A stretch of DNA of 64,000 bases from Halosimplex halophilum (GTDB lineage: Archaea; Halobacteriota; Halobacteria; Halobacteriales; Haloarculaceae). The stretch is taken from NCBI RefSeq assembly GCF_004698125.1, contig NZ_SRHV01000005.1, positions 620,001 through 684,000 on the forward strand. The letters run 5' to 3'. The notes beneath the pieces were generated by a model. It did not search any database. It was not told the DNA's origin and was given only the letters and a program-made list of their open reading frames with translations. Of this stretch, positions 4,219-43,994 are shown in pieces (position 1 is the stretch's first letter; each line of letters starts with the position of its first letter). The position numbers and the translations under genes are program-made.

Positions 4219-5469
4219 ATGGCTGGCCTCGACGACCCGGGCTTCGAGCGCTCGCGGATCGGCTGGTGGCTGTTCGTCGCCCTGCTCGCGGCCGCCGCGG
4301 CCTACGTCGCCTGGCAGTTCGTCGGGCTGGTCGTGCTCGGCGTGTTCGGCTACTACGCGACCCGGCCGATCAACGACCGCGTCGCCGCGGTCGTCGACAC
4401 CGACTGGATCGCCGCGGCGCTCACCGTCCTCGTCGTCCTCGTGCCGGTGATCGCGCTCTCGCTGTACGCCGGCTACCAGCTCCTCCTCGCGCTCCAGGGG
4501 CTGGTGGCCGGGAGCGTCGACCCCGTCGCACTGCTGGGCCAGTACGTCGGCCTCGGCGAGGTCCCGAGCGCCGAGCGCCAGTCGCTCGCGAGCGCGCTCG
4601 AAGACCCCGGCGAGTCGCTCTCGAACCCCCGGCAGACGGCCACGACGGTACTCCGGACCGGTCGGACCCTCGTCTCCGCGGTGGCGGGCACCGCCCTGCT
4701 GCTCGCGCTCTCGGTCACCCTCGCATACTTCCTCCTCAAGTACGACGACGACATCGCCGCGGCGCTGGAGCAGCTGTTCGGCGGGAGCAACACCGTGGGC
4801 TACGCGTACGCGACGGCCGTCGACGCCGACCTGGAGTCGGTCTTCCACGGGAATCTCCTGTTCGTCGCGGTCATGGCCGTCGTCGCGGGCGTCGTCTACC
4901 TCGGGACGAACCTCCTCGCGCCGGCCGGGCTGGCCGTCCCGATGGTCGCCGTGCTCGCCTTCCTGACGGGCGTCGCGAGCCTGATCCCGCTCGTGGTCGG
5001 GAAGATCGTCTACGTTCCCGTGCTCGCGCTGCTCGCCCTCCAGGCGGTCCGGTCGAGCGAGGTCGCCCTCGCGTTCGTCGGCGTCGTCGCCGTCGTCTAC
5101 TTCCTCGCGCTGGATTTCCTCCCGCAGACGTTCCTCCAGCCGTACATCTCCGGCCGCCACCTCGACGGGATCATGCTCATGTTCGCCTACCTGCTCGGGC
5201 CCGTCCTGTTCGGCTGGTACGGCTTCTTCCTGCTGCCGATCCTCTTCGTCGCCGTCCTGGAGGCCGTCCGGATCGTCCTCCCGGAACTGCTCCACGGCGA
5301 GCGGCTCACCCTCGACGCCTCGATGGGCGGGTCGGTCGGCGCCGACCCCCAGTCCGAGGGGGACGTGCCCGCCGACGAGTTCGCGAACAACCGCTTCGAG
5401 GAGCGTGACCCCCGGTCGTCCGACGACGCCGACGACGGCACCCCCTCCGACTCCTCGCCGAGCAACTGA
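4219..5469 (+). CDS. AI-2E family membrane transporter
   Basis: 416 residues with about seven or eight hydrophobic segments: WWLFVALLAAAAAYVAWQF near the start, LTVLVVLVPVIALSLYAGYQL, a central soluble stretch, then TALLLALSVTLAYFLLKYDDD and several C-terminal helices. GILV-rich helices with the conserved DFLPQTFLQPYISGRHLDG region are typical of the AI-2E/PerM (DUF20) family. Members export small molecules or ions; substrate unknown. The C-terminus is a 50-residue acidic cytoplasmic tail. I chose the ATG at 4219 because the upstream in-frame sequence is Arg-rich and unlike halophilic protein. Confidence 0.82.
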   Translation: MAGLDDPGFERSRIGWWLFVALLAAAAAYVAWQFVGLVVLGVFGYYATRPINDRVAAVVDTDWIAAALTVLVVLVPVIALSLYAGYQLLLALQGLVAGSVDPVALLGQYVGLGEVPSAERQSLASALEDPGESLSNPRQTATTVLRTGRTLVSAVAGTALLLALSVTLAYFLLKYDDDIAAALEQLFGGSNTVGYAYATAVDADLESVFHGNLLFVAVMAVVAGVVYLGTNLLAPAGLAVPMVAVLAFLTGVASLIPLVVGKIVYVPVLALLALQAVRSSEVALAFVGVVAVVYFLALDFLPQTFLQPYISGRHLDGIMLMFAYLLGPVLFGWYGFFLLPILFVAVLEAVRIVLPELLHGERLTLDASMGGSVGADPQSEGDVPADEFANNRFEERDPRSSDDADDGTPSDSSPSN

Positions 5470-5589
5470 CCGCTACCTCGGTCGTTCGCTCGGCGTCACG
5501 GGCGGCTGTCCGCCCCGGTGCCCCCCCTCGACGGACAGTGCTCCGTACAGGCGGGAGCGGTTGCGGCGAGCGGTTGCGATGAGTGGTCG

Positions 5590-5950
5590 CGGTCGGCGTG
5601 CGCTGTCGCGGCCTCCGTGCCGCGACGGAATCGCGCGAGGGATGAAGGAGCGAGCGCAGCGAGAGAGCGAATCGGCTGGGGAGGCTCGTGGCTGTCTGCG
5701 GTACTGTACGGGGCGGTCGCGGTCCGTGCCGTGCGGTCGCGGTCCCTGGCGGACTGAAAGGGCGAGGCGCGCTCGCGCTCGTTCAGTCGTCTGAGCGACC
5801 CCTATCCGCGCGGGCTGTGCGGAGAGCGCGGATATGTCGCTCAGCGACCGCGAGCGCGGCGAGGGCTTTCAGCGCCTGCCGTCAGCTGCGGTAGACACGA
5901 TAGCTAGCGAGTGGGCCGAGGGCTTTCAGCGCTCACGGTCGACTGCGGTC
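5590..5950 (+). repeat. Long intergenic repeat family, copy A
   Basis: This copy occupies most of the 597-base gap between the AI-2E transporter and Rieske genes. It starts GGTCGGCGTGCGCTGTCG and contains, in order, the blocks CGGCTGGGGAGG, CTGGCGGACTGAAAGGGCG, a nested hairpin (outer arms CTGAGCGAC and GTCGCTCAG, inner arms TATCCGCGC and GCGCGGATA), and two copies of the unit GCCGAGGGCTTTCAGCGC (the first with one change). The same blocks in the same order occur at 9.3, 16.3, 19.5 and 31.3 kb. It may extend about 30 bases further left. No transposase is present. Confidence 0.85.
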
Positions 5951-6066
5951 AAGACGACTGCTACCGAGAGCGATCGGTGTTCACGACCGACGACGAACGC
6001 GGGAGGAACGACTCCACGGGCTGTCTCGACCGGTGCGTTCAAGCGGTGACGGGCCTACCCGACGGT

Positions 6067-6681
6067 ATGGACGGGACGCGGATCGCCGACGTGAGCGACC
6101 TCTCGACGGACGACACCTTCCTCTTTCGCGTGCGGTCGGTGGACGAGAACGCCGTCGCCAGCGGCGACGCCGCCCTCCGATCCGACGAGCGGACGGCCGA
6201 CGCCGCCGACGAACGGGCGGCCGAGGCGGTCGACGATGCCGAGACGGAGACCGACGGCGGCGAGGTCCAGAACGACGCCACCAACGACGACGGGATCGCG
6301 ATGCCCGACGACATGCAGGACGACGATGACGACGTTCGAGAAGCCATCCTCCTGAAATTGGGCGGCGAGGACGACGCCGCCGAGGCGGTCGTCTGCTGGC
6401 TGAACTACTGCCAGCACATGACCCACATCAAACTCGACAAGGGGTCGGGCGCGCCGGTCCGCGACGGCGAGGTGGTCTGCGCCAACCACGGCGCCTTGTT
6501 CGCCGCCGACTCCGGCGAGTGCACCTACGGCCCCTGCGAGGGCGCCTTCCTGAACGAGGTCGAGGTGCGGGTCGCCGGCGGCGGCGTCTACCTCGCCGAC
6601 GACGAGTACGAGTACGTCGGTGAGGGGCCGGTCGAGAGCGACGACGGCGACCTGTCGTCCTCGTCGAACGTCATTCTGTAG
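6067..6681 (+). CDS. Rieske-type [2Fe-2S] protein
   Basis: 204 residues. The Rieske ligand motifs are visible as CQH (CxH) and, about 30 residues later, CANHG (CxxHG), the His/Cys pairs that bind a [2Fe-2S] cluster. A downstream GECTYGPCEG supplies the usual second loop. An unusual acidic, low-complexity segment (DETETDGGEVQNDATNDDG region, residues about 55-85) precedes the domain. This looks like a soluble ferredoxin-like or dioxygenase-accessory Rieske protein; there is no membrane anchor or partner oxygenase nearby. The ATG at 6067 was chosen because upstream in-frame codons belong to the repeat region. It ends 37 bases from a convergent regulator. Confidence 0.82.
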   Translation: MDGTRIADVSDLSTDDTFLFRVRSVDENAVASGDAALRSDERTADAADERAAEAVDDAETETDGGEVQNDATNDDGIAMPDDMQDDDDDVREAILLKLGGEDDAAEAVVCWLNYCQHMTHIKLDKGSGAPVRDGEVVCANHGALFAADSGECTYGPCEGAFLNEVEVRVAGGGVYLADDEYEYVGEGPVESDDGDLSSSSNVIL

Positions 6682-6718
6682 CGGGCGGGGACACGACCGG
6701 GACCCGACGCCACCGGGG

Positions 6719-7009
6719 TCACTCGATGACGAACGAGGGTTCGGCGACGGCCTCGCTCTTGCACTCCGGGCAGCGCGCCGGGCGGTTGACCAGGTCGTCG
6801 AACTCCTCGAAGCCGCAGTCCTCGCAGGTCGGCGGCGCGACGAGCAGCGTCTCGTCGGTCGGTTCCAGTGACTGGGAGATGTGTTCGACGTGGTCGAGCG
6901 CGTCGGCCGCCCGCACGTCGAACTCGCGGGCGAGCGCGCTCGCGGGCAGCGGTTCCTCCCGCAGTCGGTCGGCGATCCGCTGGCGGGTCGTCCGGCTGGC
7001 CTCGCGCAT
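6719..7009 (-). CDS. HTH plus zinc-ribbon transcriptional regulator (COG3357 type)
   Basis: 96 residues. The N-terminal half (TTRQRIADRLREEPLPASALAREFDV) reads as a winged helix; the C-terminal half is a zinc ribbon with CEDCGF and, about 15 residues later, CPECKS. This matches the small archaeal regulators with an HTH fused to a Zn ribbon. The start is the ATG at 7007-7009; upstream in-frame sequence is Arg-rich and unlikely. It is a lone gene divergent from the sugar nucleotidyltransferase at 7149. The target is unknown. Confidence 0.78.
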   Translation of the reverse strand: MREASRTTRQRIADRLREEPLPASALAREFDVRAADALDHVEHISQSLEPTDETLLVAPPTCEDCGFEEFDDLVNRPARCPECKSEAVAEPSFVIE

Positions 7010-34600: not shown

Positions 34601-34721
34601 CTGTCGTACTCGTCCCCCGGAACACGGGGCCGATGTAAGTGTCTTGTCGTTGGGGAGAGAGCCCCCGACGGCGGACCCGGACCACGCCCGAAGCTAAGTG
34701 CCTCGGCGCACAGGTCGGCGT

Positions 34722-35954
34722 ATGCGACGGCGCTGGCCGGTCACCGCGGTCGCGCTCGCGACAGTGGCAGTCGCAGTGCTGCTCGCCGGACCGGTCGCCG
34801 GCGGCGGGTCGGACCCGGTCGCCGGCACCGCGACAGCGAGCCCGGCGGACTCGCTCGACCGCGACGCCGCGGCCCCGTTCGACCCCGGCGCCGCGGCCCC
34901 GTCGGCGGAGCGGCTGGTCTCGCCGGTGGAGGTCGAGGGGGCGGTCTGGCCGTACACGAGCAAGCGCCGGTCGGTCGCCGGCCGGACGCTGGCGCTGAAC
35001 GTCGTCGTCCGCGGCGACGCCGACCGCGTCCGGCGGGCCTTCGAGGACCGCTCGGGCCGCAACTGGACGAGCGTCGACGGCGAGGGGAACGTGACCGAAC
35101 CCGTCTGGGACGGGGGCGACGTTCCGGGGCCCGAGTGGGGACGGGCCCGCGGGAGCGCCCGCTACACCTACGTCGCGGCGGCCGACGGCCGTCGCGGCCA
35201 GTGGGTCGAGTCGACCTACCAGCTCGGCGTCGGCACCTACCTCGGTCAGCGGACCCACGTCCGGGCCTACCCCGCCCACGTCGGGAACTGGACGGCCCTG
35301 CAGGCCCACACGGAGTACTGGGACTGGTACCGGCTGCGCCACACCGTCACCGGCGTCGAGGCCGGCGCCGAGGTTGTCGAGCGCGACCTCCGCGACGAGC
35401 GGTTCGTCGACGGGCTCACTCGCGAGTACCACGGCCACGGCGGCGGCGGGAGCGACGGGTGGATCACCGTGGTCGAGTTCGCCCCCGCGGTCCTCGTCGG
35501 CGCGGCGCTCCCGGTCGCCGTCCGCCGGCGCCGGCTCCCGCTGGCCGAGACGCTGATCCCCGCCGCGCTCGCGGGGGCCGTCCTCGGCGTCCGGAGCGCC
35601 GGCGTCGCCGCGGAGCTGCTGTTCCCCGCGGTCGACCCGAACCTGATCGCCGCGGCCCTGTACCCCACCCTCGTCGCCGGCCCGCCGCTGGCCGTCCGCG
35701 CGCTCGGGCGCGACCGCGACCCCGACCGGGTCGCGCTGCTCTCCGCCGGCGGCCTCGGCGCCGGCTTCCTCCTCGACTTCGGGCTCGTCAGCGTCCAGGT
35801 CGTCCCGATCCGCCTCGTCGTCCACCGGCTCGCGCTGCTGGGGGCGATCGCCGTCTTCGCGTACGGCACGGCCCGCGGCGACCGCCGGACGGCCGCCATC
35901 GGAATCGTGACGTGGGTCCTCGGGCTCGCCGGGGCGGTGCTCGGCGTCTTCTGA
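34722..35954 (+). CDS. Membrane protein with LssY C-terminal-like domain
   Basis: 410 residues. A signal-like N-terminus (RRRWPVTAVALATVAVAVLLAGPVAG), an exterior domain with LALNVVVRGDADRVRRAFED, RYTYVAAADGRRGQWVESTYQLGV and GTYLGQRTHVRAYPAHVGNW resembling the LssY_C domain of the PAP2/LssY proteins, then about six transmembrane helices from residue 250. AAGCTAAGTG at 34691-34700 precedes the ATG by about 25 bases. The match to LssY_C is by eye and moderately sure; function unknown. Confidence 0.62.
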   Translation: MRRRWPVTAVALATVAVAVLLAGPVAGGGSDPVAGTATASPADSLDRDAAAPFDPGAAAPSAERLVSPVEVEGAVWPYTSKRRSVAGRTLALNVVVRGDADRVRRAFEDRSGRNWTSVDGEGNVTEPVWDGGDVPGPEWGRARGSARYTYVAAADGRRGQWVESTYQLGVGTYLGQRTHVRAYPAHVGNWTALQAHTEYWDWYRLRHTVTGVEAGAEVVERDLRDERFVDGLTREYHGHGGGGSDGWITVVEFAPAVLVGAALPVAVRRRRLPLAETLIPAALAGAVLGVRSAGVAAELLFPAVDPNLIAAALYPTLVAGPPLAVRALGRDRDPDRVALLSAGGLGAGFLLDFGLVSVQVVPIRLVVHRLALLGAIAVFAYGTARGDRRTAAIGIVTWVLGLAGAVLGVF

Positions 35955-38046: not shown

Positions 38047-39639
38047 CTAGCCGGACGGATCACCGTAACCGACCGCCCGGTAGACGACGACGCCGTCGGT
38101 TTCGTAGACGCGCGTCCAGCCGTCGGCGACCGCGAAGGAACGTTCGAGCGTGCCGAACTGGACGACGGTCTCCCCGCGGACGGTGTACCGGCCCTTGGGG
38201 ACGAGGACGTACTCGGGGTCGGCGTCGACGGTCGCGGCGGCCGCCTCGACGCAGGCCGCGCTGTTGCACGTCGAGGCGTCCTCGAACGCCGTCAGTTGCC
38301 GGTCGTACGCGCCGGCGCTGGCCCACTCGACGCCCCACGGGCCGACGGCGATCGACCGCCCCGACAGCGCGGGGAACCACTCGGCTGCGTCGCCGAGCAC
38401 GAGGAACCGGGCGTCCGCGGGCGTCTCGGCGGCCGCCCACTCGGCGGCCGCGACCGACTCGTCGTCGAGGAACGAGGGCGTGGTCCCGTCGGTCGTCGAG
38501 GTCGTCTCGGCGGCGAGATACGCGCCGCCGACCGCGCTCGCGAGGACGACGAGGGCCGCCGCGGCCCCAGCCCGCCGCCGCGGCGAGGAGAGCGCCGCGG
38601 GCCAGCCGCCGGCGGCGACCCGCTCGGCGGCGCCGACGCCGGCGACCGCGAGGGCCAGCGCGCCGACGGCGTAGGGGAACCGCAGCTGGAAAAAGAGCAG
38701 CGTCGCGGCGACGGTCCAGCCGGCGACGACGGCGTCGCGGCGGGCGGCGAGCGCCGCGGCGGCCGCCGCGAACGGGGCGAGCCGGTAGACCGAGGGACTC
38801 TCGACGAGCTGGTCGAGCCCGCCGCCGATCCCGCCGTGGGTCCCGGCCGCCGCGGTGAACACCCCGGGGCCGTGGGTCGTGACGACCCACGCGAGCCAGG
38901 GGCTCGCCAGCGCGAGCGCCCCCAGGCCGACGGCCAGTCCGCGCGCGAGCCCCCGGATCGACCGGTCGAGCCCGGCCCAGAACACGAGGTAGCTCGCGAC
39001 GACGAACAGCGCGTAGGTCGGGTGCGTGAGGCCGGTCAGCGCGACCGCGACGGCACCCGCAGCGATCGCCCGCCGGCCGTCGCCGGTAAAGACGTGGTAG
39101 CCGGCGTAGACCGCGGTCAGGGCGTAGAGGAACGCGAACCCGCGGACGACGCCGCCCGCGGAGACGTGCCACTCCAGCACCTGCGGGTTCAGCGCTATCA
39201 GCGCCGCGGTCGCGGTCCCGGCCGCCCGCGAGCCGGTGTAGTCCCGCCCGAGCAGGTACGCCGGCACCAGCCCCGCGACGACGGCGACGGCGGGCAGGAA
39301 CCGGGTGACCGTCAGGGGGCCGAGCCCGAGGTCGAGGGCGAGCGCGAACACGTAGAACTGCAGCGGCGGGTACGCGAAGGGGACGGGGAGGGCGTATCCC
39401 GGGACGGTCGCCGGCGGCGCGTACCCGTTCGCGGCGATCTCGGCGGCGATCTGTGCGTACAGCCCGCCGCCGTAGGCCGGGTAGGGGTTGGTCGCCAGGT
39501 AGACGACGACGGCGACGACGCCGGGGAGGACGGCCAGTCCGAGCCAGCGCGCGTCCCGCCCGTCCAGCGGCGCGGTGCGCCGCAGCCAGCGGACGGGCGC
39601 GAGCGCGATCGATCGGTCCCTGGCACCGCTCGCCGTCAT
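38047..39639 (-). CDS. GT-C-like multi-membrane glycosyltransferase family protein
   Basis: 530 residues with about 11 hydrophobic helices between residues 30 and 375, ending in an extracellular domain. A short acidic or aromatic loop NPYPAYGGGLYAQIAAEI near the start resembles the DxD-type loop region of GT-C transferases, though no clear DxD is seen, and TYALFVVASYLVFW-type helices follow. ATGA overlap with the next gene (39636-39639) indicates translational coupling. Likely works on a dolichol-linked sugar or a membrane glycan; donor unknown. Confidence 0.62.
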   Translation of the reverse strand: MTASGARDRSIALAPVRWLRRTAPLDGRDARWLGLAVLPGVVAVVVYLATNPYPAYGGGLYAQIAAEIAANGYAPPATVPGYALPVPFAYPPLQFYVFALALDLGLGPLTVTRFLPAVAVVAGLVPAYLLGRDYTGSRAAGTATAALIALNPQVLEWHVSAGGVVRGFAFLYALTAVYAGYHVFTGDGRRAIAAGAVAVALTGLTHPTYALFVVASYLVFWAGLDRSIRGLARGLAVGLGALALASPWLAWVVTTHGPGVFTAAAGTHGGIGGGLDQLVESPSVYRLAPFAAAAAALAARRDAVVAGWTVAATLLFFQLRFPYAVGALALAVAGVGAAERVAAGGWPAALSSPRRRAGAAAALVVLASAVGGAYLAAETTSTTDGTTPSFLDDESVAAAEWAAAETPADARFLVLGDAAEWFPALSGRSIAVGPWGVEWASAGAYDRQLTAFEDASTCNSAACVEAAAATVDADPEYVLVPKGRYTVRGETVVQFGTLERSFAVADGWTRVYETDGVVVYRAVGYGDPSG

Positions 39640-41048
39640 TTCCGGTCGATCCGGAGGGGGTTACGGACCCCGACGGACACGTCCGACCAGCGGTACTCCA
39701 GGCGCGCCCAGAGCGGGACGGCGACGACGAGCGCGAGGATGGCGATCCCCTCGACGACGCCGACCCAGCGCGGGAAGACGTAGGCGATCCCGTTGGCGAC
39801 CGACGGCGGCAGCGCCGCCATGACACGGCCCGACAGCGACAGGTTCCCCGGCTCCGGCTCGCGGCTCGGCAACTCGAGCGCGGCCGCGCTCTCGCCGTCG
39901 GCGCTCTCCTCGCCGGTCCCCAGCCGCTCGGCCTCGTAGGGGAACCCGATCGTGGCGGTCCAGACCACCTCGCCCGACCGATCCACCTCGAACACCCGGT
40001 CGCCGTTGGAGTCGGTGACCAGCGTGTGGCCGTTGGGCAGGCGGTCGGCGTCGCGGGGCCACTGCATCCGCGCGTCGCTCCAGGTCCACGACCGGTTCCA
40101 GGTCCCGTCCTCGCGCTGGTACTCGACGACGCGGCCGTTCTCCGAGTCGGCGACGAGCAGCGCGGGCCCGCCGTGCTCGGGCGGGATGTAGTCGGGGTTG
40201 TGCTGCTCGTAGAGGGTGTCGTGGTCGCCGTCGGACCCGAGCGTCCACTCCTCCAGCAGTCCCCGCTCGAAGTCGATGAACGCGACCTGGTCGTGGTTGC
40301 GGAGGCTGACCATCGCGGCGTCGCGGCCGTCGATCTCGACGTGTTCCACGTCGTTGAGGTGCGTCCAGTCCTCGGGGAACGGGCCGCCGCTGTCGACGTC
40401 GAAGGCGGCCTGAGCCGACCACTCCCAGGTGATCAGCTCGGTCGTCGTGTTGACGACGAAGACGCGGTCGCGGTCGATGTCGGCGACGAGCAGCCGCTCG
40501 TCGTCGATCCGGTCGACGTCGTGCCACCGGGTCGAGTGCTTGCCGGGCGTGACCCGGCTGTACACCTCGGTCGACTCGCCGGTGGTGAGGTTGACGCGCT
40601 CGACGCCGTTGCGCGTGCAGACCGAGCCGTCGCACTCGTCGGCGTCGAGGTGGTCGGCGTAGACGAACTCGACGGTCGATTCGGTCCCCGCGACGGGGTC
40701 GACGTCCCAGTAGCGGGTGTGGTCGTTCTCGTGGTAGTAGATCCCCCCGTCGCGGGCGAAGGCGACGAGTTCGGCCTGGGCGCGCGGGCCGTCGTTCTCG
40801 TCGCTGACGAAGGCGTTGGAGTCGGTCGCGACCACGGTGCGACCGTCGCGCGGTCCGACGACCGCCCCGCGGTCGCCCGAGCGCAGCGCCTGTTCGACCG
40901 ACGGGTCGCCGGTCACCCGGTCGTTCGACCGCTCGGCCGCGACGTAGCCGACCGCGACCGTCGCCGTCGCGAGGACGACGACCGCGGCCAGCAGCAGGCG
41001 GAGGTTCCCTCGGCGTGACACGGTCGGTGAATCGGGTCCGCGGTACAT
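39636..41048 (-). CDS. Arylsulfotransferase (ASST)-like membrane protein
   Basis: 470 residues. N-terminal helix (NLRLLLAAVVVLATATVAVGYVAA), then a β-propeller-like domain with HDVDRIDDERLLVADIDRDRVF, DWTHLNDVEHVEIDGRDAAMVS, HNPDYIPPEHGGPALLVADSENGRVVEY and RLPNGHTLVTDSNGDRVFEV, all ASST-type repeats; a C-terminal helix follows. Such proteins are annotated arylsulfotransferases, though in archaea they may be structural or sensing. The likely catalytic His of ASST is not securely assigned here. Probably coupled to the GT-C-like gene. Confidence 0.72.
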   Translation of the reverse strand: MYRGPDSPTVSRRGNLRLLLAAVVVLATATVAVGYVAAERSNDRVTGDPSVEQALRSGDRGAVVGPRDGRTVVATDSNAFVSDENDGPRAQAELVAFARDGGIYYHENDHTRYWDVDPVAGTESTVEFVYADHLDADECDGSVCTRNGVERVNLTTGESTEVYSRVTPGKHSTRWHDVDRIDDERLLVADIDRDRVFVVNTTTELITWEWSAQAAFDVDSGGPFPEDWTHLNDVEHVEIDGRDAAMVSLRNHDQVAFIDFERGLLEEWTLGSDGDHDTLYEQHNPDYIPPEHGGPALLVADSENGRVVEYQREDGTWNRSWTWSDARMQWPRDADRLPNGHTLVTDSNGDRVFEVDRSGEVVWTATIGFPYEAERLGTGEESADGESAAALELPSREPEPGNLSLSGRVMAALPPSVANGIAYVFPRWVGVVEGIAILALVVAVPLWARLEYRWSDVSVGVRNPLRIDRK

Positions 41049-41247
41049 AGGGTGATCGTTGCGCCGGTCGTCGCAGCCGGTCGGCGCCGCCCGCGTTCGA
41101 CGGACGCCGCCCGCGCTCGCCGACGCGAAGGTAGTCGCGGTCGCCGGACGACGGTGATCGCGACCGCCGAACGGCGGCGGGTCCCGCGTTCGCCCGACGG
41201 CAGCCTTTCCCAACAGATAATGCCGTCGGTGCCGAACTGGCGGAGAG

Positions 41248-43113
41248 ATGGGGGATCGACCGGACGCGCCGCCCTCGAACCGGCGGCGCAAGCTGCTGGG
41301 TTCGCTCGCGGCCGGGGCCACCCTCGGGACCGCCGGGTGTATGCGCCGGCTGCGCGCGGCCACCGGCTGGGAGTCGGTGTCGCCGGTGTCGGTCGGGATC
41401 AAGACGCTCCCGGCCGACGCGGACCCCTACGCCCTCCGGGTCGCCCAGTCGGTCGCCGGGTGGTTCCGGGCGGCCGGCCTCGAAGTGTCGGTCACGCCGG
41501 TCGCCCCCGAGGAGCTGTACCGCCAGGTGCTCATCCGGAACGACTTCGACGCGTTCGTCGGCCGGATCCCCGCCCGCCTCCGGGACGGCGACGGGCTCTA
41601 CCCGCTGTTGCACTCGCGGTTCGGCTCCGAGCCGGGCTGGCAGAACCCGTTCGGCTACGCGAACCTCGACGTCGACGACCGGCTGGTCGAGCAGCGCACC
41701 GCGACCGGCGAGGCGCGACGCGAGGCGCTCGCGGCCGTCCAGCGCAGCGTCGCCCGCACCCAGCCGTTCTCGCTGGTCGCGTTTCCCGACGAGATCCGGG
41801 CCGTCCGCGACGGCCGCTTCGACGGGTGGCACGGGATCGACTTCGAGTCGCCGCTGGGCTACCTCTCGCTCGACGAGGGCTCCCGGGAGGCCTCGCGCGC
41901 GACCGCCACAGCGACCGCCACGGCGCCCTCCGACGACCCCGCGACGCTACGCGCCGTGATCACCGACCGGCGACCCACCGAGAACCTCAACCCGCTCGCC
42001 GCGGAGTTCCGGTGGACCGGCGTCCTCACCGGACTGCTGTACGACTCCCTGGGCTACGAGGCCGAGACCGGCGGGGTCGAGCCCTGGCTGGCCGACACCT
42101 GGGAGTTCGAGACGGTCGACGGCCGGCCGCGTGCGCGCGTCCGGCTCCGCGACGGGCTGACCTGGCACGACGGCGAGCCGCTGACGGCGGCCGACGTAGC
42201 GCTCACGTACGCCCTGCTCTCGGACGTGACGCTCGGGCGGACGACAGCGGGGACCGACACCGCGACCGAGGACGACGCGGCGGTGGCCGCCCCCCGGTTC
42301 CGCGGCCGGAGCAGCCTCGTCGCCGACGCTGAGGCGCTCGACTCGCGGACCGTCGAGATCCGGTTCACCGAGTGTACCGCCGGGGTCGCGGCGCGCGCGC
42401 TCACGGTCCCGGTGTTGCCCGACCACGTCTGGCGCGAGCGAGCGAGTCCGGCCTCCGTCGGCGGCGTCGACTTCGGCGCGACCTCCGAGGCGCTCGTGAC
42501 CAACAACGTCCCGCCGGTCGGGAGCGGACCGTTCGCCTTCGAGCGGAACGTCCCCGGCGACCGCCTCGTGCTCGAACGCTTCGACGACCACTTCCTCGCG
42601 GCGGACCCGCCGGCGGATCTGCCCGCCGACGTGGACGGGCTCCCGCCGTTCGAACGGGTGGACGTGACCGTCGTCGGCACCGACGAGACGGCCGTCTCGA
42701 TGGTCGCGAGCGGCGACGCGGACGTGACCGGGACCGCCGTCGGCGCCGGAACGATCCCGCGGATCGGCCGGTCGGAGGGGGTCGACCTGGTCGTCGGCCG
42801 GTCGCCCTCGCCGTACGTCGTCGGCTACAACGCCCGCCGGCCGCCGCTGACGAACCCGCGGTTCCGGAACACGCTCGGCCACCTGGTCGACCAGCGGGCG
42901 CTGGTCGACGACGTGTTCGACGGCTACGGCTGGCCCGCGGCGAGCCCTCTGGCCGGGACCGACCTGGTTCCTCCGGACCTCCGGTTCGAGGACGAACACC
43001 CGGTGACGCCCTTCTTCGGGTCGAACGGCGCGGTCGACGTCGACGCCGCGCGGGACGCGTTCCGCGAGGCGGGGTACGAGTACGACGACGGGGCCCTCGT
43101 GGAGCGTGACTGA
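41248..43113 (+). CDS. Family 5 (peptide/nickel type) substrate-binding lipoprotein with permuted domain order
   Basis: 621 residues. N-terminus NRRRKLLGSLAAGATLGTAGC has a Tat-like double-Arg and a lipobox Cys. Residues about 48-200 (ADPYALRVAQSVAGWFRAAGLEV, NPFGYANLDVDDRLVEQ, FSLVAFPDEIRAVRDGRFDGW) resemble the usual C-terminal lobe of SBP_5 proteins. Residues about 220-621 (AVITDRRPTENLNPLA, WLADTWEFETVDGRP, GLTWHDGEPLTAADVAL, ending ARDAFREAGYEYDDG) resemble the usual N-terminal and middle part, ending just where that C-terminal lobe normally starts. So the two halves appear swapped. No permease or ATPase genes are next to it. Downstream PAP2 overlaps its stop by one base. Confidence 0.82.
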   Translation: MGDRPDAPPSNRRRKLLGSLAAGATLGTAGCMRRLRAATGWESVSPVSVGIKTLPADADPYALRVAQSVAGWFRAAGLEVSVTPVAPEELYRQVLIRNDFDAFVGRIPARLRDGDGLYPLLHSRFGSEPGWQNPFGYANLDVDDRLVEQRTATGEARREALAAVQRSVARTQPFSLVAFPDEIRAVRDGRFDGWHGIDFESPLGYLSLDEGSREASRATATATATAPSDDPATLRAVITDRRPTENLNPLAAEFRWTGVLTGLLYDSLGYEAETGGVEPWLADTWEFETVDGRPRARVRLRDGLTWHDGEPLTAADVALTYALLSDVTLGRTTAGTDTATEDDAAVAAPRFRGRSSLVADAEALDSRTVEIRFTECTAGVAARALTVPVLPDHVWRERASPASVGGVDFGATSEALVTNNVPPVGSGPFAFERNVPGDRLVLERFDDHFLAADPPADLPADVDGLPPFERVDVTVVGTDETAVSMVASGDADVTGTAVGAGTIPRIGRSEGVDLVVGRSPSPYVVGYNARRPPLTNPRFRNTLGHLVDQRALVDDVFDGYGWPAASPLAGTDLVPPDLRFEDEHPVTPFFGSNGAVDVDAARDAFREAGYEYDDGALVERD

Positions 43114-43994
43114 TGGGGCTGGCAACCGTCCTCGCGCAGGTCGCCGCCGGCGTCGTCGCCCTGCACCTGCTCGGACTGGTCGCGGTCGTCGGCCGCGACG
43201 GCCTGGCCGGCGCCCCCGGACGGGTGCGGGCGAACCTCCGCGCGGTCGCGCCGACGCTGGGGCTGCTCGTCGTCGTCCTCGCCGTCAACGGCGTCGTCCG
43301 CGACGTGGGCGTCGAGCTCTCCTGGCTCATCGGCGTCAACATCACCGGCGCGATCCACGCCCTGGAGGGCGGGTTCGTCGCCTGGGTCCAGTCGCTCGCG
43401 ACGCCGCCGCTGACGACCTACTTCAGCGCCGTCTACGTCTTCGGCTACGCCTTCCTGCTGACCTTCCCCGTCGTCGCCTACCTCGCCTGCCGGAGCGACC
43501 GCCCCGTCCGGACGCTGCTCGTCGCCTACGCGGTCAACTACGCCCTCGGGCTCGTCTGTTACGTCCTGTTCGTCTCCTACGGCCCCCGGAACGTCACGCC
43601 GGAGGCGGTCGACTCGCTGCTGTACGCCCACTGGCCGCAGGCGCAACTGCTGACCGGCCGGGTCAACCGCAACACGAACGTCTTCCCGTCGCTGCACACC
43701 TCGCTGTCCGTGACGGTCGCGCTCGTCGCCTACCGCTACCGCGAGGTCTACCCCCGGTGGACGCCCGTCGCCGCCGCCCTCGCGGGGTCGATCGCCGTCT
43801 CGACGATGTACCTCGGCATCCACTGGGCGACCGACGTGGTCGCCGGCGCCGCCCTGGCGGCGGTCGCCGTCGCCGTCGGCCTCCGGGTCACCGCCCCCGC
43901 CGGAGAAAGCGCCGACCCCGTCGACGGGGCCGACCCCGCCGACGGGGCCACCGGCCGCTGGACCGACCGGGTCGCCGACTGGATCCGGGAGTGA
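43113..43994 (+). CDS. PAP2-family membrane phosphatase
   Basis: 293 residues with about six hydrophobic helices. PAP2 motifs: FPSLHTSLSVTVAL (C2, His) and GIHWATDVVAGAAL (C3, His and Asp); the C1 region is less clear. The family dephosphorylates or transfers lipid phosphates; the spacing is nearer the inositol-phosphorylceramide/AUR1-like subset. The ATG overlaps the upstream stop by one base, showing translational coupling with the binding protein, an unusual partnership. A C-terminal acidic linker (ESADPVDGADPADGATG) follows the last helix. Confidence 0.83.
   Translation: MGLATVLAQVAAGVVALHLLGLVAVVGRDGLAGAPGRVRANLRAVAPTLGLLVVVLAVNGVVRDVGVELSWLIGVNITGAIHALEGGFVAWVQSLATPPLTTYFSAVYVFGYAFLLTFPVVAYLACRSDRPVRTLLVAYAVNYALGLVCYVLFVSYGPRNVTPEAVDSLLYAHWPQAQLLTGRVNRNTNVFPSLHTSLSVTVALVAYRYREVYPRWTPVAAALAGSIAVSTMYLGIHWATDVVAGAALAAVAVAVGLRVTAPAGESADPVDGADPADGATGRWTDRVADWIRE

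Follow-up and report, generated by a model that had tools for sequence, protein, structure and literature searches.

Circularly permuted substrate-binding proteins of the SBP_5 family in Halosimplex halophilum and in other archaea and bacteria

Layout of the binding protein gene and its surroundings

The window, a 64,000-nucleotide stretch of the Halosimplex halophilum genome, contains a gene for a substrate-binding protein (SBP) that is directly followed by a gene for a PAP2_3 membrane phosphatase, whose start overlaps the SBP stop codon. An arylsulfotransferase-like gene is encoded divergently. The features of the locus are as follows:

41248-43113, + strand: substrate-binding protein ORF, 621 aa, with a Tat/lipobox N-terminus
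41248-41340, + strand: Tat signal (NRRRKLL) and lipobox (LGTAGC, Cys31), read directly from the sequence
41389-41874, + strand: residues 48-209, the C-terminal segment of a standard SBP_5 protein, here N-terminal (hhalign, 1xoc alignment, isolated fold)
41875-41940, + strand: residues 210-231, linker connecting the former C- and N-termini (pLDDT 56-58; dN/dS comparison)
41947-43092, + strand: residues 234-615, the N-terminal two thirds of the SBP_5 fold (PF00496 positions 2-283; 1xoc chain 22-349)
43113-43994, + strand: PAP2_3 membrane phosphatase gene (PF14378, E 4.6e-19)
39636-41363, - strand: divergent arylsulfotransferase-like gene, start as called and uncertain (PF14269, E 1.8e-8)

The first 93 nucleotides of the SBP gene are predicted to encode an export signal and a lipid anchor, and sequence comparison reveals the same RR...C pattern at the head of the haloarchaeal homologues. 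Both pieces of the protein are under purifying selection, whereas the linker is free of it: in the moved piece (residues 48-209), dN (0.07-0.40) is lower than dS in all four comparisons, and in residues 210-231 dN is about equal to or higher than dS.

Two segments of the SBP_5 fold in swapped order

The SBP_bac_5 profile (PF00496) matches residues 277-615 of the window protein with its positions 2-283 of 368, scoring 167.6 bits against a curated cut-off of 32.4. Since the match ends at position 283, the end of the domain is absent from the C-terminus of the protein, in line with the suggestion of the first-pass annotation that the polypeptide ends where the missing part would start; the SBP_5 part stops after the AREAGY helix. 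Residues 47-209 alone match profile positions 293-360 (E 0.0026). When the window protein was rejoined in the standard order, a single continuous match to positions 2-360 was obtained with 178.3 bits, compared with 167.6 bits for the native order and 152.3 bits for a construct with the moved piece reversed.

Profile comparisons gave the same picture. In hhalign, the profile of this family's N-terminal piece matched the final third of unpermuted SBP_5 proteins from haloarchaea with a probability of 98.2 (E 4.6e-14), compared with 4.5 for the other part of these proteins and at most 0.2 for shuffled or reversed controls. In a profile built from 48 family members and compared with Bacillus subtilis AppA (1xoc), positions 220-560 aligned to AppA chain 22-349 (i-E 1.5e-60) and positions 53-187 to chain 365-497 (i-E 2.5e-15), that is, in swapped order. 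Among the 60 PDB chains listed, none had a best aligned stretch that crosses the junction, and all 13 unpermuted bacterial and archaeal SBP_5 proteins used as a colinear control aligned in the standard order. Chance similarity of the moved piece was rejected by the shuffled, reversed, and colinear controls. Both segments are homologous to one parent fold in swapped order; the C-terminal third of this fold is present in the window protein, relocated, and both lobes are complete. A duplicated second C-lobe was looked for within the protein and is absent.

We conclude, with a probability of about 97%, that the window protein is an SBP_5-fold protein with a circularly permuted chain. The first-pass annotation had proposed such a permutation, with the last third of the fold just after the lipobox, and Pfam rejoining, profile comparison, AppA alignment, and the AlphaFold model described below agree with it. 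It had also let the old N-terminus follow from about residue 215: the order stands, and the start is shifted to about residue 234, beyond the linker.

Predicted fold

The AlphaFold2 model of the window protein (48 sequences) has a mean pLDDT of 91.1 and a pTM of 0.89. In the model, the N-terminal region forms one confident body with the rest and is not placed outside the SBP_5 fold; the least confident stretch inside this body is the junction linker. In a Foldseek search, the full model matched SBP_5 structures along about 400 of 590 residues (target TM near 0.5); since Foldseek aligns in sequence order, this is the result that a permuted chain should give. Modelled alone, the moved piece (162 aa) reached a pLDDT of 82.5, and all 50 of its best PDB matches were SBP_5-type, including 3pam and 3lvu, which were crystallised as partial domains. 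Sequence, model confidence, and Foldseek together suggest that the fold of the parent family is probably kept, and the structure may match it at the atomic level as well.

Permuted SBP_5 proteins and breakpoint classes in haloarchaea

In this genome, 18 SBP_5 proteins were detected, five of which are permuted: the window protein, L003, L004, L002, and L006. These five have four different breakpoints, and a fifth breakpoint occurs in other haloarchaea. The breakpoints define the following classes, with positions given on a canonical 585-position profile:

Class A, break at about 426: window protein, L003
Class B, break at 391: L004
Class C, break at 504: L112, L113 (other haloarchaea)
Class D, break at 526: L002
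Class E, break at 491-525: L006

The N-terminal piece of the window protein is too divergent for the canonical HMM, and its break was thus placed via Pfam rejoining, hhalign, and the AppA alignment. As judged by eye from the sequences, the haloarchaeal breakpoints lie between secondary-structure elements. In Pfam, permuted proteins of classes C, D, and E look normal because the 'Middle' model does not reach the last strands; permutations of this kind stay hidden when a Pfam model covers the middle of the fold only.

Class D is the cleanest case. Over 421 aa, permuted L002 and unpermuted L130 are 68% identical, and the 49 aa that moved to the front of L002 are 65% identical to the C-terminus of L130; in the class search, unpermuted relatives (L128-L139) were 59-68% identical to L002. 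Permuted L004 is 51% identical to unpermuted L108, with 41% in the moved piece, and further clean pairs are formed by L112 with L108 and by L006 with L144.

These sister genes also bear on the idea that the window protein is a fusion of a C-terminally truncated SBP_5 protein and an unrelated N-terminal domain. The single-sequence similarity of residues 47-209 to SBP_bac_5 is weak, as a fusion would have it; however, the profile-profile match with its clean controls, the swapped alignment to AppA, the exclusively SBP_5 structures among the 50 best PDB matches of the isolated piece, and the clear cases at 59-68% identity make a fusion exceedingly improbable.

Distribution beyond haloarchaea

The first-pass annotation had expected the permuted order to be shared by related haloarchaeal proteins. 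It is, with 32 of the 57 genomes of the family carrying it; the scope was understated, since there are several origins and breakpoints, also outside haloarchaea. A distribution limited to haloarchaea was rejected by permuted genes in other archaea and in three bacterial groups, Bacillota, Chloroflexota, and Alphaproteobacteria. Within the phylum, permuted genes adjoin OppBCDF in four non-haloarchaeal genomes (L159-L162). Two samples, of 249 and 251 genomes and drawn from the phyla to which Clostridium magnum and Thermoflexus belong, also yielded permuted genes that consist of a single ORF, and junction-spanning matches at E 1e-85 or better were present in 7 of 190 genomes from the class of a Phaeobacter. 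Two named bacterial genes, KVU_RS15710 of Ketogulonicigenium vulgare and DEJ54_RS20240 of Nitratireductor sp. OM-1, and the haloarchaeal HACJB3_RS16870 of Halalkalicoccus jeotgali carry no annotation beyond 'ABC transporter substrate-binding protein'. Among the matches listed for 44 bacterial genomes, none spans the junction, which indicates that permuted forms are a minority in bacteria.

The Chloroflexota sample contains an additional class F with a break at about 340, beside OppBCDF (L320, 6881-8542; L324, 7103-8749). This break falls in the loop that leads into the RQAVAASIDRE helix.

An origin of the junction-spanning matches in tandem genes or internal stops was rejected: the loci read are single ORFs, with the exceptions of L327, where nothing was recovered, and L323, where the permuted SBP gene (5210-6919) is split into a 187-aa ORF for the moved piece and a 355-aa ORF for the rest. 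The latter is either a broken gene or a pair of chains that assemble. Tat export as an explanation for the tolerance of permutation was weakened by non-haloarchaeal members with Sec-type signals, as recognized by eye. The permuted SBP at L159 (6730-8472) carries a PGF-CTERM sorting motif, a likely cell-surface anchor at the new C-terminus.

Number of origins

Classes B, C, D, and E sit within unpermuted groups in a common-core tree, and at least five changes of order are forced by well-supported branches. Placement of all permuted rows in one clade was rejected (p-AU 8e-26), and with it a single origin of the permuted forms in haloarchaea. The sequence phylogeny thus suggests that permuted SBP_5 proteins arose independently at least five times, in archaea and bacteria. 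Class D does not come out as a single resolved group in the tree and may stem from one event or more. In a 92-row tree, class A of the window groups with bacterial members, and other groups with a similar break are placed elsewhere; according to this quick and less certain tree, a break near 425 probably had more than one origin.

All cases could also descend from a single ancient permutation that later reverted to the standard order in part of the family. Such a history would suit class A, which is large and old and is shared with bacteria; it is also compatible with parsimony, which alone cannot separate gain from loss. Against it stand the rejected single clade and the nesting of classes B, C, D, and E, each with its own breakpoint, in unpermuted groups; differing breakpoints make returns to the standard order an unlikely explanation, and we regard a single origin as very improbable.

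Proposed route to the permuted chain

In the OppA/DppA fold, the standard N- and C-termini are close together in the same lobe. A short linker can therefore join them while the chain opens at a surface loop, and the fold is kept. In the window protein, the last third of the fold comes first, a flexible linker takes the place of the former termini, and the new ones lie between the 'EAGY' helix and the next strand. The membrane anchor would thereby be moved to the other lobe. The likely route is an in-frame partial gene duplication, after which the first copy lost its front and the second copy its end. Weak traces of duplication are seen at the breakpoints, such as LPEPET at the new start and LPSEE at the new end in class D.

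Recombination between paralogues could have produced the permuted order as well, with the moved piece derived from another SBP_5 gene and not from rearrangement of one gene. The same possibility was proposed for permuted Tp0684 (PMC4990184), and about 18 SBP_5 genes are present in this genome; however, in class D the identity to the unpermuted orthologues is similar for the moved piece and for the remainder of the protein (65% versus 68%), which bears on class D and not on the older class of the window. We consider such a chimera unlikely, and rearrangement of one gene is preferred.

Gene neighborhoods and possible function

Importer genes adjoin most of the permuted genes examined, in complete or near-complete Opp operons as with unpermuted relatives; only part of the set is present in the stretches of L312, L314, L315, L316, L318, L321, L322, and L329, and none in that of L317. 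This context indicates that most permuted members are most likely working binding proteins, and they probably feed an Opp/Dpp importer, the ordinary job of the family.

The subfamily of the window protein has a different context. In the neighborhoods read, neither the window gene nor its close orthologues adjoin Opp/Dpp permease or ATPase genes, and the subfamily appears to have lost its transporter neighbors. The PAP2_3 gene follows the SBP gene in 19 of its 21 loci, the arylsulfotransferase-like gene is near this pair in 5 of 21, and named records hold the SBP gene together with PAP2 and arylsulfotransferase genes. Two other genes recur in this region: one for a 418-aa protein without a Pfam match (34698-35954, + strand), close to the SBP-PAP2 pair at 7 of the 21 loci, and one for a 530-aa membrane protein with weak similarity to PMT_2 glycosyltransferases (38047-39639, - strand), close to the arylsulfotransferase-like gene at 3 of the 21.

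From gene order, namely the loss of the importer and the pairing with PAP2, we tentatively propose that the window protein may bind a ligand for an envelope-lipid enzyme or modulate this enzyme; the permuted orphan would then be a candidate binding protein whose role has shifted to the lipids of the envelope. Ordinary uptake for an Opp/Dpp importer encoded elsewhere, with PAP2 as a mere operon neighbor, has nearly even odds: the fold is intact and under purifying selection, and several importers are encoded in the genome, whereas PAP2 stays in neighborhoods that lack an importer set, and the importer-linked relative retrieved with the family has an identity of only about 30%.

Comparison with known systems

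SBP_5 is among the largest families of binding proteins, and in most genomes the annotation of peptide, nickel, and sugar uptake draws on it; natural circular permutation is usually thought to be rare. One genome with five permuted cases and four breakpoints, one class being still 59-68% identical to unpermuted orthologues, provides natural matched pairs for testing the effects of chain order on folding, export, anchoring, and transport. The first-pass annotation knew of no description of the permutation, and no account of a permuted SBP_5 protein was found in the literature searched, which left most subscription journals outside its scope, so that absence is not proof; repeated permutation in SBP_5 has apparently not been described before.

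Comparison of the window protein with known binding proteins revealed three kinds of relationship: (i) to standard SBP_5 proteins, (ii) to a lipoprotein of the same fold type that acts outside uptake, and (iii) to a permuted protein of another fold cluster. With OppA, DppA, AppA, and NikA (cluster C), the window protein shares both parts of the fold and lipoprotein export, and with SBP_5 (PF00496) it shares WHDGEPLTAADV and GSGPF-type motifs; it differs from them in the circularly permuted order of the chain.

By analogy, the nearest precedent for an envelope role would be LpqW (PDB 2grv), which is not known to depart from the standard chain order and resembles the window protein in being a lipoprotein with an SBP_5-type fold, retrieved as a Foldseek match of the moved piece. 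LpqW acts not in uptake but in envelope glycolipid synthesis, namely in mycobacterial lipoglycan synthesis, where it regulates PIM/LAM synthesis (PMC3229680).

Tp0684/MglB-2 of Treponema pallidum is a naturally permuted sugar-binding protein of cluster B, and tethering was offered by its authors as a possible reason for the permutation (PMC4990184). Both it and the window protein are naturally permuted, tethered binding proteins of the ABC-transporter type. The PDB matches of the window protein are cluster C SBP_5 structures, and it thus does not belong to the Tp0684/MglB-2 class (type Ic/cluster Bc). Tp0684/MglB-2 represents one class with a cluster B (type I) fold and an unrelated breakpoint, whereas the permutations in SBP_5 are repeated events.
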